Of a stretch of DNA of 32,833 nt, positions 24,625 to 29,710 are shown in pieces; the first letter of the stretch is position 1, and every line of letters begins with the position of its first letter. The stretch comes from Gemmatimonadota bacterium (GTDB lineage Bacteria > Gemmatimonadota > Gemmatimonadetes > Gemmatimonadales > Gemmatimonadaceae). Location of the stretch: positions 21,906-54,738 of the forward strand of contig JAHFCT010000020.1 in assembly GCA_023249375.1 (NCBI GenBank), read 5' to 3'. Position numbers and translations under genes: made by a program. Below the pieces are notes generated by a model that ran no database searches, had not been told where the DNA came from, and saw only the letters and a list, made by a program, of their open reading frames with translations.

Positions 24625-26589
24625 TCAGCGTACGTGCACCGCCACCGAGATGGTGGGCGGCAGGTGCAGCGGCGGTGCGCCCGGCGGCGGCGTCGGCGGC
24701 GGCGTGTTGGGCGGCGGCAGCAGGAAAGCCGGCAGCCCGAACTTGAGCACCAGATCGCCGCTGCTGCTTGGCGTGAATTCAAAGTCGTAGATCTCGCCCG
24801 GATCAAAGACGAGCGACGCGGGGCGTGACGTCGCCTGCACGGCCGGCAGCGGATATCCGTCCTTCGCCACGGCACGCCACATCACCGGCTTGTCGCCGTC
24901 GTTGAGCGTCACCCACGTCGGACTGTCACCCGCGAGGTTGAATAACCGGAACCGATAGCGGGTGCCCGCCTTGAGGTTCATCGGCGCGGGCTGCGTCTGG
25001 CCATTCATGACAATGTCGGGGAAGGGTCCGAAGATCGGATTGACGACTGCACCAGCCGTGCCGAAGAAGAAGATCTTGTCCGTTTCGGGATCGAAGTGCT
25101 GTCCGGGCTCGAGGACGATGATGGGGCCGTAGAGTCCGCGGCCCATTTGCTTTGCTTCATTAAAGTGCGAGTGATACATGAACGAGCCGGCGCGCGGGGG
25201 CGTCCAGCGCACGGTCAGTGAATCGTGCGGCGCGATGGACGGCAGGATGTTCTTGCCCGAGCCGCTCCATCCCGGCACGCCGTCGGGATAGCTCTCGAGT
25301 TCGATGCCGTGCCAATGTACGGTGGCGTGGTCCGTGGACTGATTGACGACGGTGACGGCGACCGGCTGGTCGCGTTCAAGAAACAGCGTGGGCCCGGGAA
25401 CGGGCATCGCGCTCGGATCTTTGGCTTCGGGCGTGCCATCGACGACGAACGACATGCCGGACTGCGTTCCGTAGACGTTCGGCTTCTCGCGCTGTTCGAT
25501 GCGGATGGCGCGCGGCGTCGCGGCCGAGTGCGCCACGGTGCCATTGGGCTTGATGCTGATGCCCATCACGAGGCCGAACATCTGATGCGGACGATCGGAC
25601 ATGTGATGATCCATCATCGCCATGTCCATCTCGCCGTCCTTCGTATCGAGCGCGACCACACCGGACAGGTGCGTTGCGTAGTGGCAGTGGAAGATCCAGT
25701 TGCCGGGTCGCGCGGCCTTCCAGGCGAGCGTCATCGTCTGCTGCGGATTGATCATCTCGGTCACGGCCATCCGCTGTTGTGTTGCGGTATACAGCGAGTC
25801 GGTGACGCCATCGCCCTTGGATTCCATGCGAAAGTAGAAACCGTGGAGATGCATCGGATGGTCCACGTCGGTGAAGTTCACCACGCGCCACAGAATGGAA
25901 TCGCCCTGCGCGTAATCGAGCCGCTCCGTGTGTGGCCAGGAGAGGCCGTTGATGGTCATCGTGCCGCGGCCGAGTCCGGACCGGCTCGACGGATTGACGG
26001 TGAAGTACCACGAAATGGTGAAGATGCGCTCGGTGATGCTGCGCCGCGCGTTGGGCGCATCCACGACGATGACGCCGGCGAGCTGGGCGTCGTCGAAGAC
26101 CGGCGGTCCCGGGGGGCGGACGCGTTTGGCGGAGTAGTAGAAGGTGCCGGCGGTCGTTGCCATGAACCGCACATCGGCGGCGGCGTTGACGGCGATGATG
26201 ACACTGTCGGTCATGCCGCGCGTCTTGCCGAAGCCGTAGACAACCAGCGGCATATTCAACCGGTTGCGAATGGTGGCGTGCACCTCGCTGCCGACGGCGA
26301 CGCGGAGCAGCGGTCCGGGCGTGGAGAGCGCCTTGCCCTCCTCGGCAAACGCCGCCAGGTCGATGGATCCGCCGCCGCTTCCCTCGGGCTGCCAGCGGCC
26401 CTCGCGTGCTTCGAGCGAGACGGAGAGCACGCCGTTCTTCAGCGTGCCGGCGGCGTGGCGGTTGTCGTTGGGTGCGATCGGCTCAGGAACTTTCCTGGCG
26501 CCGTTTCCATTGAGCAGCAGGCCAACGGACAGCAGTCTGAGGAGCAACAGAGAGTGTAACACGGGGGGGGCTCCGTGCGAGGGGGGCAT
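24625..26589 (-). CDS. Multicopper oxidase with permuted copper-motif order
   Basis: This 654-residue protein has a signal sequence at its start (LHSLLLLRLLSVGLLL), so it is exported. It has four cupredoxin-like parts. The first (about 90-180) lacks His ligands. The second has HPMHLHG (244-250) and HCHYATH (301-307), the motifs normally found last in such enzymes, including the type 1 Cys302. The third has HWHG (425-428) and YHSH (472-475), normally found first. The fourth (about 535-620) has no ligands. A Met/His-rich stretch MDMAMMDHHM (321-330) lies between. The axial position ten residues after Cys302 is Val. A Pro-rich stretch (about 624-645) precedes the C-terminus. ATG 26589 is listed; GTG 26562, after GGAG and eight C, is an equally good start. 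The substrate is unknown. Confidence 0.85.
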   Translation of the reverse strand: MPPSHGAPPVLHSLLLLRLLSVGLLLNGNGARKVPEPIAPNDNRHAAGTLKNGVLSVSLEAREGRWQPEGSGGGSIDLAAFAEEGKALSTPGPLLRVAVGSEVHATIRNRLNMPLVVYGFGKTRGMTDSVIIAVNAAADVRFMATTAGTFYYSAKRVRPPGPPVFDDAQLAGVIVVDAPNARRSITERIFTISWYFTVNPSSRSGLGRGTMTINGLSWPHTERLDYAQGDSILWRVVNFTDVDHPMHLHGFYFRMESKGDGVTDSLYTATQQRMAVTEMINPQQTMTLAWKAARPGNWIFHCHYATHLSGVVALDTKDGEMDMAMMDHHMSDRPHQMFGLVMGISIKPNGTVAHSAATPRAIRIEQREKPNVYGTQSGMSFVVDGTPEAKDPSAMPVPGPTLFLERDQPVAVTVVNQSTDHATVHWHGIELESYPDGVPGWSGSGKNILPSIAPHDSLTVRWTPPRAGSFMYHSHFNEAKQMGRGLYGPIIVLEPGQHFDPETDKIFFFGTAGAVVNPIFGPFPDIVMNGQTQPAPMNLKAGTRYRFRLFNLAGDSPTWVTLNDGDKPVMWRAVAKDGYPLPAVQATSRPASLVFDPGEIYDFEFTPSSSGDLVLKFGLPAFLLPPPNTPPPTPPPGAPPLHLPPTISVAVHVR

Positions 26590-26774
26590 CGGGATCGTCA
26601 GTCGAATGACGCGAACAGATCGTATCAGCCGCCGGACGAATGCGCCAGCACGTCGGTGCGACCGCGTCCAACTCGTGTCATGGGGCAGCCATTGATCTGG
26701 CGCCGCGCAGCGCCGAAGATTCGCCATCGCGGATTTTGCTGACAGCAGGCGGACGTCACCGAGGAGCGAGCGGC

Positions 26775-27302
26775 GTGAGCACTGAAGCGCGGAGCGTGCA
26801 GGCCATTGAAGCGTTGCTTGAGCGCGAACGTGACGCGTTCGTCGCGCGGTTCCACGCCGTGCCCGCCGAACGACGGCGCACGGTACCCGCGGACGGCGGA
26901 TGGTCAGCGGTGCAGGTGGCGGAGCACGTGAGCCGCGTGGAGTTTGGCGTGGCCAAGATGATCGGCGCCGGCGCGGCGATGCCGCGCACCGCGACGCCGG
27001 AGGAGCTCGAGACCGCGCAGATCACGGAACGCAAGGCGCAGATCGTGCGCGATCGCACGGAGAAGGTCGAGGCGCCGGTGCGTACGCATCCGCAGGGTGA
27101 ACTCGACTATGTGGCGGCGCTGGCGCAGCTCGCGCAATCACGCGCGGCGCTGCTGGCGGCGTTTCGCGGCGCGGACGCCGCCGTGCTGGATGGCATCACG
27201 TTCGTGCATCCGTTCATCGGCGCGCTGACGCTGCGCGCGTGGGTGGAGCTGGTGGCGCATCACGACGCGCGGCACGCGGAGCAGCTGGCGGAGCTGGCGT
27301 AG
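26775..27302 (+). CDS. DinB-like four-helix metal-binding protein
   Basis: This 175-residue protein has the DinB/YfiT pattern. A first helix is followed by GGWSAVQVAEHVSRVE with His51, and the last helix carries the second metal site in VELVAHHDARHAEQL (His163 and His167, H-x3-H). DinB-family proteins are four-helix bundles that bind a divalent metal. Several act as thiol-dependent transferases (bacillithiol or mycothiol), but most are uncharacterised. GTG 26775 preceded by GAGGAG at 26761-26766 sets the start; a longer upstream frame has no ribosome-binding site. It is cytoplasmic. It diverges from the multicopper oxidase and converges on the signalling operon. I infer no specific substrate. 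Confidence 0.8.
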   Translation: MSTEARSVQAIEALLERERDAFVARFHAVPAERRRTVPADGGWSAVQVAEHVSRVEFGVAKMIGAGAAMPRTATPEELETAQITERKAQIVRDRTEKVEAPVRTHPQGELDYVAALAQLAQSRAALLAAFRGADAAVLDGITFVHPFIGALTLRAWVELVAHHDARHAEQLAELA

Positions 27303-27356: not shown

Positions 27357-29342
27357 CTATCCGAGCTCGGCGAGCTGCTCCAGAAGCACCGCCGCGCTCG
27401 CTGGGCGCTGCGCCGCCGCTTTGGACAGCAGCTGCATCACCAGCGCCGAGAGTGCGGGCGGCACGTCGGGATTCTCGCGGGCGGGCGGCACGGGTTCGAC
27501 CGTCAGCACGCGCGCGATCAACGCCACCGCCGAGGGCGCCTGGAACGGCGCCGTGCCCGTGAGGCACTCGTAGATCACGACGCCGAGCGCATAGAGATCG
27601 GCGCGCGCGTCAACCTCCTCACCCACGAGCTGTTCGGGTGCCATATATGCGGGCGTACCGACGATGAGGCCGGACTGCGTCCGCGTCGACGTGGCCTCGG
27701 CCAGTCGCGCGATGCCGAAGTCCATCACCTTGAGCACGCCGTCGCCGTCGATAAGCGCGTTCTCGGGCTTCACGTCGCGATGGATGACGCCGGCGGCGTG
27801 CGCGACGGCGAGCGCCTCGGTGAACTGCCGGGCGAGCGCGAGCGTGCTGGCGACGCCCAGCTTGCCGCGCGTCATCAGCAGCTCGCGCACCGTGAGACCC
27901 TGCACCAGTTCCATCGTCACGAAAAGCTGGCCATCGGCGTCGCCGAGGTCGTGCGTGCGCACCACGTTGCGATGCGAAATGCGGCGCGCCAGGCGGATTT
28001 CCGACATGAAGCGTTCGGCGAGCACCGCGTCGCCGGTGAGCAACTCTCGGCGTATGGTCTTGACCGCCACGTCTTCCTCGAGCTTGCGGTCGCGCGCGCG
28101 ATAGACCACGCCCATGCCGCCGGTGCCGAGGACGCCGCGGATTTCGTAGCGATCGCCGAGGACGGACCCCACCGCCAGCGCATCGCCGCCGTCGGTGACG
28201 GCCGACTGATGCATGGCTTCGTACTCGGTGGTGGCGAGCGAGACGTCGGATTGCAGTTCGCGCAGCTGTTCGCGCAGGCGCGATTCGCGCGCGTGCACAC
28301 CGGCGGCCATCGCGTCAAAGACGCGGGCGAGCCGCCCGAGTTCATCGTCGCGGCCCGTGACGCCGGCCAGCGCGCCGGGTGCATACGTGCCGAGTTCGAC
28401 CGCACTCGCCGCCTCGATAACGCGTGTGACCTGTCGCAGATAATCGGCCTCGCGATCGTGCCACCGCTTCTTCTCGAGTGACGCGCCGATGCGGGCGCGC
28501 AGGAGCACCGGGTCAAACGGCTTGGTGAGATAATCCTCGGCGCCGTGTTCGATGCAGCGCACGACGCTGGCGAGGTCGTCGAGCGCCGAGATCATGATCA
28601 CCGGGATGCTGCGCGTATCCGGATTGCCGGTGATCCGTTCGAGGACGGCGAACCCGTCCATGCCCGGCATGAGGACGTCGAGAAGGACGAGATCAAAGCC
28701 GTCCTGGGCGACTTTGCGCAGCGCGTCCTCGCCGTTCGCCGCACTGTCGATGTCGTAGCCCTCCCGTTCGAGACGTCGGGCGAGCACGGCGCGATTCTCC
28801 TCGACGTCATCGACAATGAGGATGCGGCCCTTGCTGCCGGCACGTGCGGAGGTCGAGTGCGGCGTGATGGCGACGTCGGGGGCGGCCCCCGCTGCACGGA
28901 CGGTGGCCGCTGCGCCTGCGGTGCCAGTTCCGGCGTACGGCCCACTCTCCCGCGCACCCGTGAGCGCCGAGGGGACCGGCACCGCCGTGAGACGGCGCAC
29001 CGCCTGCGCGATACGCTCGACGTCCGCGACGAACTGGGCATCGTGTGCGCCCTCGAGCAGCACGGTGGTGGCAGCAAGCACCGTCTCTTGCGGTGTGGCG
29101 AGATCGGCGAGCAGGCCCGAGAGATCCTCGAGCGTGGCGATGCCGGTGGGCGGGAGCGCGGCGTTGATGAGCGCCAGCACTTCGCGCGCCACACCGATGA
29201 TGCGGTCGATGGTGGCGGCATCCGGCGAACCGTCGGTGCAATCTTCGCGCAGCATCTCGGCATAGCCGATGATGTGATTGATGGGCGTGCGCAGTTCGTG
29301 GCGCAGCTCCGACGCCGCCTTGGGATCGAGCGTGCCGTTCAT
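27357..29342 (-). CDS. Fusion of histidine-kinase dimerisation segment, receiver and Ser/Thr protein kinase
   Basis: This 661-residue cytoplasmic protein has three signalling parts. Residues about 5-65 resemble a HisKA segment (SELRHELRTPINHIIGYAEM, candidate phospho-His15), but no ATP-binding kinase domain follows. A receiver domain (about 172-285) has Asp178/Asp179, phospho-acceptor Asp222 in [11 protein letters not shown] and Lys274. A coiled, HAMP-like linker (about 290-385) follows. The Ser/Thr kinase (about 400-655) has GTGGMG (406-411), Lys428, Glu448, HRDVKPEN (521-528), DFG (541-543) and APE (568-570), so it should be active. ATG 29342 overlaps the previous stop codon as ATGA, so translation is coupled. 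A longer frame upstream runs through that gene and is rejected. The phosphorelay presumably controls Ser/Thr phosphorylation. Confidence 0.88.
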   Translation of the reverse strand: MNGTLDPKAASELRHELRTPINHIIGYAEMLREDCTDGSPDAATIDRIIGVAREVLALINAALPPTGIATLEDLSGLLADLATPQETVLAATTVLLEGAHDAQFVADVERIAQAVRRLTAVPVPSALTGARESGPYAGTGTAGAAATVRAAGAAPDVAITPHSTSARAGSKGRILIVDDVEENRAVLARRLEREGYDIDSAANGEDALRKVAQDGFDLVLLDVLMPGMDGFAVLERITGNPDTRSIPVIMISALDDLASVVRCIEHGAEDYLTKPFDPVLLRARIGASLEKKRWHDREADYLRQVTRVIEAASAVELGTYAPGALAGVTGRDDELGRLARVFDAMAAGVHARESRLREQLRELQSDVSLATTEYEAMHQSAVTDGGDALAVGSVLGDRYEIRGVLGTGGMGVVYRARDRKLEEDVAVKTIRRELLTGDAVLAERFMSEIRLARRISHRNVVRTHDLGDADGQLFVTMELVQGLTVRELLMTRGKLGVASTLALARQFTEALAVAHAAGVIHRDVKPENALIDGDGVLKVMDFGIARLAEATSTRTQSGLIVGTPAYMAPEQLVGEEVDARADLYALGVVIYECLTGTAPFQAPSAVALIARVLTVEPVPPARENPDVPPALSALVMQLLSKAAAQRPASAAVLLEQLAELG

Positions 29343-29710
29343 GCGGGCGGCGTGAGCAGCGCCTGCATCTTGCCGAGCAGCCGCTCGAGGTCCACCGGCT
29401 TGGTGTCGTAATCGTTGCACCCGGCGTCGAGCGCCTTGTCGCGGTCGCCCGACATGGCGTGCGCGGTGAGCGCGATGATCGGCATCTGGCCACTGGCGCC
29501 GGCGGCGCGAATGCGGCGCGTGGCTTCCCATCCGTCGATCTCGGGCAGGCTCATGTCCATGAGGACGAGATCCCACCCGCCTTCGAGCGCACGCGCGACG
29601 CCCTCCAGTCCGTCCACCGCGAGTTCGACGGTGTGTCCGCGGCGCTGCAATCGGCGCGAGAGCATGTCGCGGTTCATTTCATTGTCTTCGACGAGCAGGA
29701 TGCGCGGCAT
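29339..29710 (-). CDS. Stand-alone receiver-domain response regulator
   Basis: This 123-residue protein is a single receiver domain with no output domain. It has the acidic pocket (Glu8, Asp9), phospho-acceptor Asp52 in LVLMDMSLPEIDG, Thr82 in LTAHAM and Lys104 in DTKPVD. The pattern MPRILLVEDNEMNRDMLSRRL resembles DivK-like or hybrid-kinase-derived receivers that shuttle phosphate. It starts 6 bases after the hybrid-kinase stop codon, and its own stop overlaps the ATG of the Ser/Thr-kinase fusion gene. It is therefore the middle partner of a three-gene operon. It probably carries phosphate between the sensor and the fusion protein, or acts by protein-protein contact. Confidence 0.92.
   Translation of the reverse strand: MPRILLVEDNEMNRDMLSRRLQRRGHTVELAVDGLEGVARALEGGWDLVLMDMSLPEIDGWEATRRIRAAGASGQMPIIALTAHAMSGDRDKALDAGCNDYDTKPVDLERLLGKMQALLTPPA

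Follow-up and report, generated by a model that had tools for sequence, protein, structure and literature searches.

How could a multicopper oxidase assemble its copper centre if the motifs that usually close the chain stand ahead of those that usually open it? The question is raised by a gene at positions 24625–26589 of the window, that is, of the whole 32,833-nucleotide stretch of Gemmatimonadota DNA analysed here. These coordinates had been given correctly in the earlier note, and the reading frame was found to lie on the minus strand, with the ATG at 26589 and the stop codon at 24625–24627; the plus strand of the same interval is interrupted by stops. Re-reading of the 654-residue translation placed the four copper motifs at the residues first reported: HPMHLHG at 244–250 (25840–25860), HCHYATH at 301–307 (25669–25689), HWHG at 425–428 (25306–25317) and YHSH at 472–475 (25165–25176), all on the minus strand. 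The Pfam matches run in the same order, Cu-oxidase_2 (the canonical last domain) at 212–310 preceding Cu-oxidase_3 (the canonical first domain) at 397–495. From established knowledge of multicopper oxidases, we take H244, C302 and H307 to be type 1 ligands, H247 to be a type 2 ligand, and H249, H301 and H303 to be type 3 ligands; in the two later motifs H425 is assigned to type 2, and H427, H473 and H475 to type 3.

The protein thus carries ten histidines and one cysteine in HxHG, HxH, HPxHxHG and HCHxxxH motifs on cupredoxin domains of the Cu-oxidase families, which are the features of the multicopper oxidase superfamily. Cys302 is the only cysteine in the chain. Three-domain enzymes are recognised by three domains with HxHG and HxH ahead of HPxHxHG and HCHxxxH, a pattern that the window protein does not show. 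The NCBIfam models for CopA, ascorbate oxidase, CueO, laccase and nitrite reductase matched only one or two short stretches, far below their cut-offs, and the annotation library tested contains no model for the family to which the protein belongs. The first 30 residues (26500–26589, minus strand) resemble a signal peptide, with a helix at residues 10–25 in the structure model, which suggests that the protein is secreted or otherwise extracytoplasmic.

A reversed order in a single gene could be an accident. The homologue search proposed in the earlier note showed that it is not: the full-length matches examined in 60 related genomes all share it, and the same order and ligands recur across 75 aligned family members with 35–65% identity, which were used for the ligand counts and the tree. 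The same genome holds a second copy with 41% identity (L002, contig C106). The 75-member alignment shows no variation at H244, H247, H249, H301, C302, H303, H307, H425, H427 and H473; H475 is present in 74 members and missing from one row. The expectation that all copper-cluster histidines remain was therefore borne out, the ten histidines and the type 1 cysteine being present in 74–75 of the 75 relatives. So was the observation that the first and fourth cupredoxin parts are devoid of histidine ligands, as no histidine or cysteine conserved in at least 80% of these relatives was found in either part.

A scan of one genome per species yielded 361 encoding loci, of which 80 were retained. These loci come from Gemmatimonadota, Acidobacteriota, Balneolota, Bacteroidota, Eremiobacterota and Rokubacteria, together with one Steroidobacter bin; the Bacteroidota member belongs to an isolate, Flavihumibacter profundi (L074). 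In the tree of the 75 members the branches largely follow phylum, a few of them being mixed. Of 150 Gemmatimonadota genomes scanned, 55 matched at E ≤ 1e-30, a count that takes in two or three generic multicopper oxidase matches near the cut-off. Full members have E-values of about 1e-170 and other multicopper oxidases of about 1e-30, and only fragments lie in between. The family is present in about a third of the genomes sampled, with at most five copies per genome. Members were also found in genomes consisting of a single contig (G077, G103, G104 and G153). An assembly artefact or chimera was considered and is ruled out by these genomes, by Gemmatirosa kalamazoonensis and by the Flavihumibacter isolate. 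The Gemmatirosa copy is located on a large plasmid (NZ_CP007129.1:418967-420655). Several relatives have lipobox-like N-termini, and one distant member (L027) has a C-terminal extension resembling a transmembrane anchor. Taken as a whole, the family is a widespread and apparently undescribed group of soil-bacterial copper oxidases.

What, then, are the four parts? The chain was divided into domain A (residues 36–185; 26035–26484), a cupredoxin of first-domain type that has lost the trinuclear ligands; domain B (186–347; 25549–26034), of last-domain type, where the type 1 site and one half of the trinuclear ligands are located; domain C (348–500; 25090–25548), of first-domain type, with the other half; and domain D (501–654; 24628–25089), a cupredoxin free of ligands whose nearest counterpart is the second domain of two-domain multicopper oxidases, all encoded on the minus strand. 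These assignments come from profile comparisons with multicopper oxidases of the same phylum, whose domain segments were cut without overlap; the best-match ranking was the same when overlapping segments were used. Domains A and C both match best the first domain of two-domain enzymes (E 1.4e-17 and 4.5e-32), and domain B their last domain (E 5e-25), although B is nearly as close to the last domains of three-domain enzymes. Domain D matches the last domain of two-domain enzymes at E 4.9e-16 and the middle domain of three-domain enzymes at 2.7e-7. Within the chain, the best partner of A is C (E 2.5e-12) and that of D is B (1.8e-10).

The earlier note had taken the simplest reading to be a circularly permuted three-domain core, with canonical domain 3 followed by domains 1 and 2, and an extra, ligand-free domain at the front. 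Under this reading the active site would not differ. Part of it stands. The second and third domains jointly hold the complete ligand set, conserved as in a working enzyme, and they pair in the model in the manner of the cluster-holding domains of laccases. The motif order fits a permutation, and so does the near-equal distance of B from both kinds of last domain. However, permutation does not predict the nature of the front domain. Domain A was matched by Cu-oxidase_3 in all 26 members tested; HMMs of first-type domains from two- and three-domain enzymes score it alike (23–28 bits), whereas middle-type sets give nothing; and its PDB relatives are the first domains of copper nitrite reductases and two-domain laccases. 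In 32 of the 75 members a VHGL motif with a histidine at residue 118 (window 26236–26238) occupies the place of HWHG. As judged from its sequence, domain A is best described as a decayed canonical first domain rather than a generic addition, and VHGL as a probable trace of its lost copper ligands. An out-of-frame piece of a tandem three-domain gene (2-3-1-2) was also considered and rejected, because A is of first type and reaches only E 0.14 against three-domain middle domains.

The fate of domain D is less one-sided. If D were the canonical domain 2 that a permutation requires, it should resemble middle domains, and taken alone it partly does: PF00394 was the only multicopper oxidase family found for it in Pfam (22 of 26 members), and its PDB matches are exclusively middle domains of three-domain laccases. 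The Pfam match is not diagnostic, because the last domain of five of the seven two-domain multicopper oxidases from the same phylum matches PF00394 as well. The HMM scores agree with the profile comparison in placing D nearer to two-domain last domains (median 20.4 bits) than to either of two sets of three-domain middle domains (9.3 and 0.2 bits). Nevertheless, the PF00394 and PDB matches partly favour the middle-domain assignment, and some doubt remains.

Structure prediction bears on the same choice. An AlphaFold2 model of the full-length protein, built from the 75-member alignment, reached a pLDDT of 92.1 and a pTM of 0.90. Its first half (A–B, residues 36–347) overlays the two-domain multicopper oxidase 3gdc as one unit (2.5 Å over 257 residues), which argues against a permutation, and its second half (C–D, residues 358–654) overlays the two-domain laccase 2zwn (2.8 Å over 247 residues). 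The second half overlays domains 1–2 of the three-domain enzyme 6vow (Z 21.8) about as well as a two-domain laccase (Z 22.3), as a permuted protein would. Over its whole length the model overlays residues 1–655 of factor V (Z 24.1, 495 residues) and residues 348–1033 of ceruloplasmin (Z 19.6, 497 residues), in each case a run of four consecutive domains. Weighing the decayed front domain, the higher scores of D with two-domain last domains and the single A–B unit, we regard the permuted core as improbable; an arrangement of two tandem two-domain units, (A–B)(C–D), fits better.

Whether the two central domains can share a copper cluster was approached by modelling the B–C segment alone (pLDDT 86, pTM 0.80). 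The isolated model overlays CueO and other three-domain enzymes over 221–232 residues at about 3.9 Å. On CueO residues 46–521, 231 residues were superimposed at 3.9 Å, and the aligned range spans the first to the last domain. In the model, B and C thus appear to pair like the cluster-bearing first and last domains of laccases, as read from the range of the overlay.

Motif order, ligand conservation, domain kinship, the predicted fold and the pairing of B with C are the results on which our reading rests. They make it probable that the protein is an extracytoplasmic multicopper oxidase with four cupredoxin domains, built as two tandem two-domain units with a single copper centre between B and C. 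Copper loading, catalysis, a monomeric open-ring state and a metal or small phenol as substrate would be predicted for it.

The tandem arrangement also offers an explanation for the distribution of the ligands. Ordinary two-domain multicopper oxidases form a ring of three copies, in which the last domain of one copy meets the first domain of the next. A protomer's first domain and the second domain of the adjacent protomer together build the trinuclear cluster (PMC13151041). With two such units joined in one chain, the only intrachain contact of a last with a first domain would be B/C, while A and D would each face an absent partner. The ligand pattern agrees with this exactly: B and C are complete, and A and D have lost their ligands. 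With B and C complete, the enzyme is predicted to work like any multicopper oxidase. The type 1 copper in B (H244, C302, H307 and probably the axial M337) would receive the electrons of the substrate and hand them on via Cys302 and its flanking histidines to a trinuclear cluster at B/C, held by H247, H249, H301 and H303 from B and by H425, H427, H473 and H475 from C, where O2 would be reduced to water.

The axial ligand was proposed from the alignment. Met337 (25579–25581, minus strand) is a methionine in 74 of the 75 members and is aligned with the GM of the canonical HCHxxxH...GMxGxxxV. It starts a strand M-x-G-L-V-x-G-I, and because this strand aligns with the GMFGMVTALVV that follows HCHxxxH in two-domain enzymes of the same phylum, Met337 is likely to be the axial type 1 ligand. 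Could the motifs nevertheless be kept for structure only, in a relative that no longer catalyses anything? Multicopper oxidase relatives free of ligands do exist, and SufI was among the structural matches. However, in relatives from several phyla and at 35% identity all eleven ligands and Met337 persist, in contrast to the lost ligands of A and D, and a non-catalytic protein is therefore hardly to be expected.

A variable insert (residues 308–336; 25582–25668, minus strand) separates His307 from Met337; its length ranges from 12 to 42 residues across the family. In the 75-member alignment it is enriched in histidine (9.8% vs 3.7% in the whole protein), methionine (5.9% vs 2.4%) and aspartate (9.2% vs 5.3%). 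From this composition, it may bind or admit metal ions, an analogue being the Met-rich segment that CueO carries, and it hints at metal oxidation.

The gene surroundings were searched for further clues to function. No conserved operon or neighbourhood was found around the family genes; only Hanks-type kinases recur, adjoining them in 10/116 against about 2% at a distance of at least three genes (post hoc p 0.002). In the window itself, the neighbours are a DinB-like gene (26640–27302, plus strand) and genes for a GAF/PAS hybrid kinase, a MarR regulator, a TonB receptor and a peptidase S13, none of which indicates a substrate. A further neighbour, an open reading frame at 27357–29576 on the minus strand, fuses HisKA, receiver and Hanks-type Ser/Thr kinase domains.

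How such a chain arose leads to the six-domain proteins. Vasin et al. described prokaryotic MnxG-like proteins and the algal FOX1 as six-domain oxidases that carry type 1 copper in domain 2 and a trinuclear site at the junction of domains 2 and 3; in the prokaryotic proteins domain 2 is the only one with type 1 copper (PMC3600357). The reversed motif order is consequently already known from six-domain proteins. Like these proteins, the window protein bears its type 1 copper ligands on domain 2 and divides its trinuclear ligands between domains 2 and 3, but it lacks their six cupredoxin domains: the six-domain proteins comprise 1217–2681 residues, whereas the window family has four domains in about 620–660 residues. 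Mnx also differs in being a complex with accessory subunits.

The shared site suggests that the family might descend from a six-domain oxidase of the MnxG/FOX1 type that lost its last two domains and inherited the site between domains 2 and 3. A resemblance of the model to MnxG (9bxa) was found by Foldseek only, with a TM-score of 0.61 by query. On the other hand, the matches at E ≤ 1e-30 in the 150 Gemmatimonadota genomes included no recognised six-domain member, and, as a weak argument, the 60 best PDB sequence matches to the family profile include ceruloplasmin but not MnxG. No close sequence kinship with MnxG was seen among those 60 matches. We consider this descent unlikely, though less so than a permutation, and it is compatible with the tandem (A–B)(C–D) build and its function. 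Domains A and B are closer to external two-domain enzymes than to C and D, which makes a fusion of two different units as possible as a duplication. Both routes, fusion or duplication of two-domain genes and shortening of a six-domain gene, are entertained.

Set beside the other known systems, the tandem build has in each half the domain order and fold of the type B two-domain multicopper oxidases (SLAC and CjMCO, with 2zwn and 3gdc as the structural two-domain matches), with which it also shares the ligand motifs and, by prediction, a trinuclear site at the contact of a last-type with a first-type domain. Those enzymes, however, are homotrimers with three type 1 and three trinuclear sites between chains, whereas the window family has two units and four domains in one chain, with one internal site. 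Ceruloplasmin, hephaestin and factors V and VIII are likewise tandem two-domain units, but have six cupredoxin domains, and the oxidases among them have the trinuclear site where domains 1 and 6 meet, hence the usual motif order. With the three-domain laccases, CueO, CopA and CotA the family shares the ligand set and, in the model, the arrangement of B and C; it differs in the reversed motif order, the four domains and the additional first-type domain in front.

A 2026 paper recognises two-, three- and six-domain multicopper oxidases only (PMC13151041), and no description of a four-domain multicopper oxidase or of a circular permutation was found in the open literature, subscription journals and preprints lying outside this scope. 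The four-domain class therefore appears to be new, although its motif order has been published for six-domain proteins. It is possible, if somewhat doubtful, that it constitutes a fourth domain-count class, an open monomer of two-thirds of a ring with a single internal site and ligands lost at both unpaired ends, and a step between two-domain trimers and six-domain rings. Schemes of multicopper oxidase evolution derive six-domain (and three-domain) proteins from two-domain units; a four-domain form would fit in naturally as an intermediate. In motif-based surveys of soil laccases, genes of this kind may be counted among the two- or three-domain laccases. The chain, presumably monomeric and with a single interface site, would offer a simple system in which to ask why copper ligands are lost from cupredoxin faces that have no partner.
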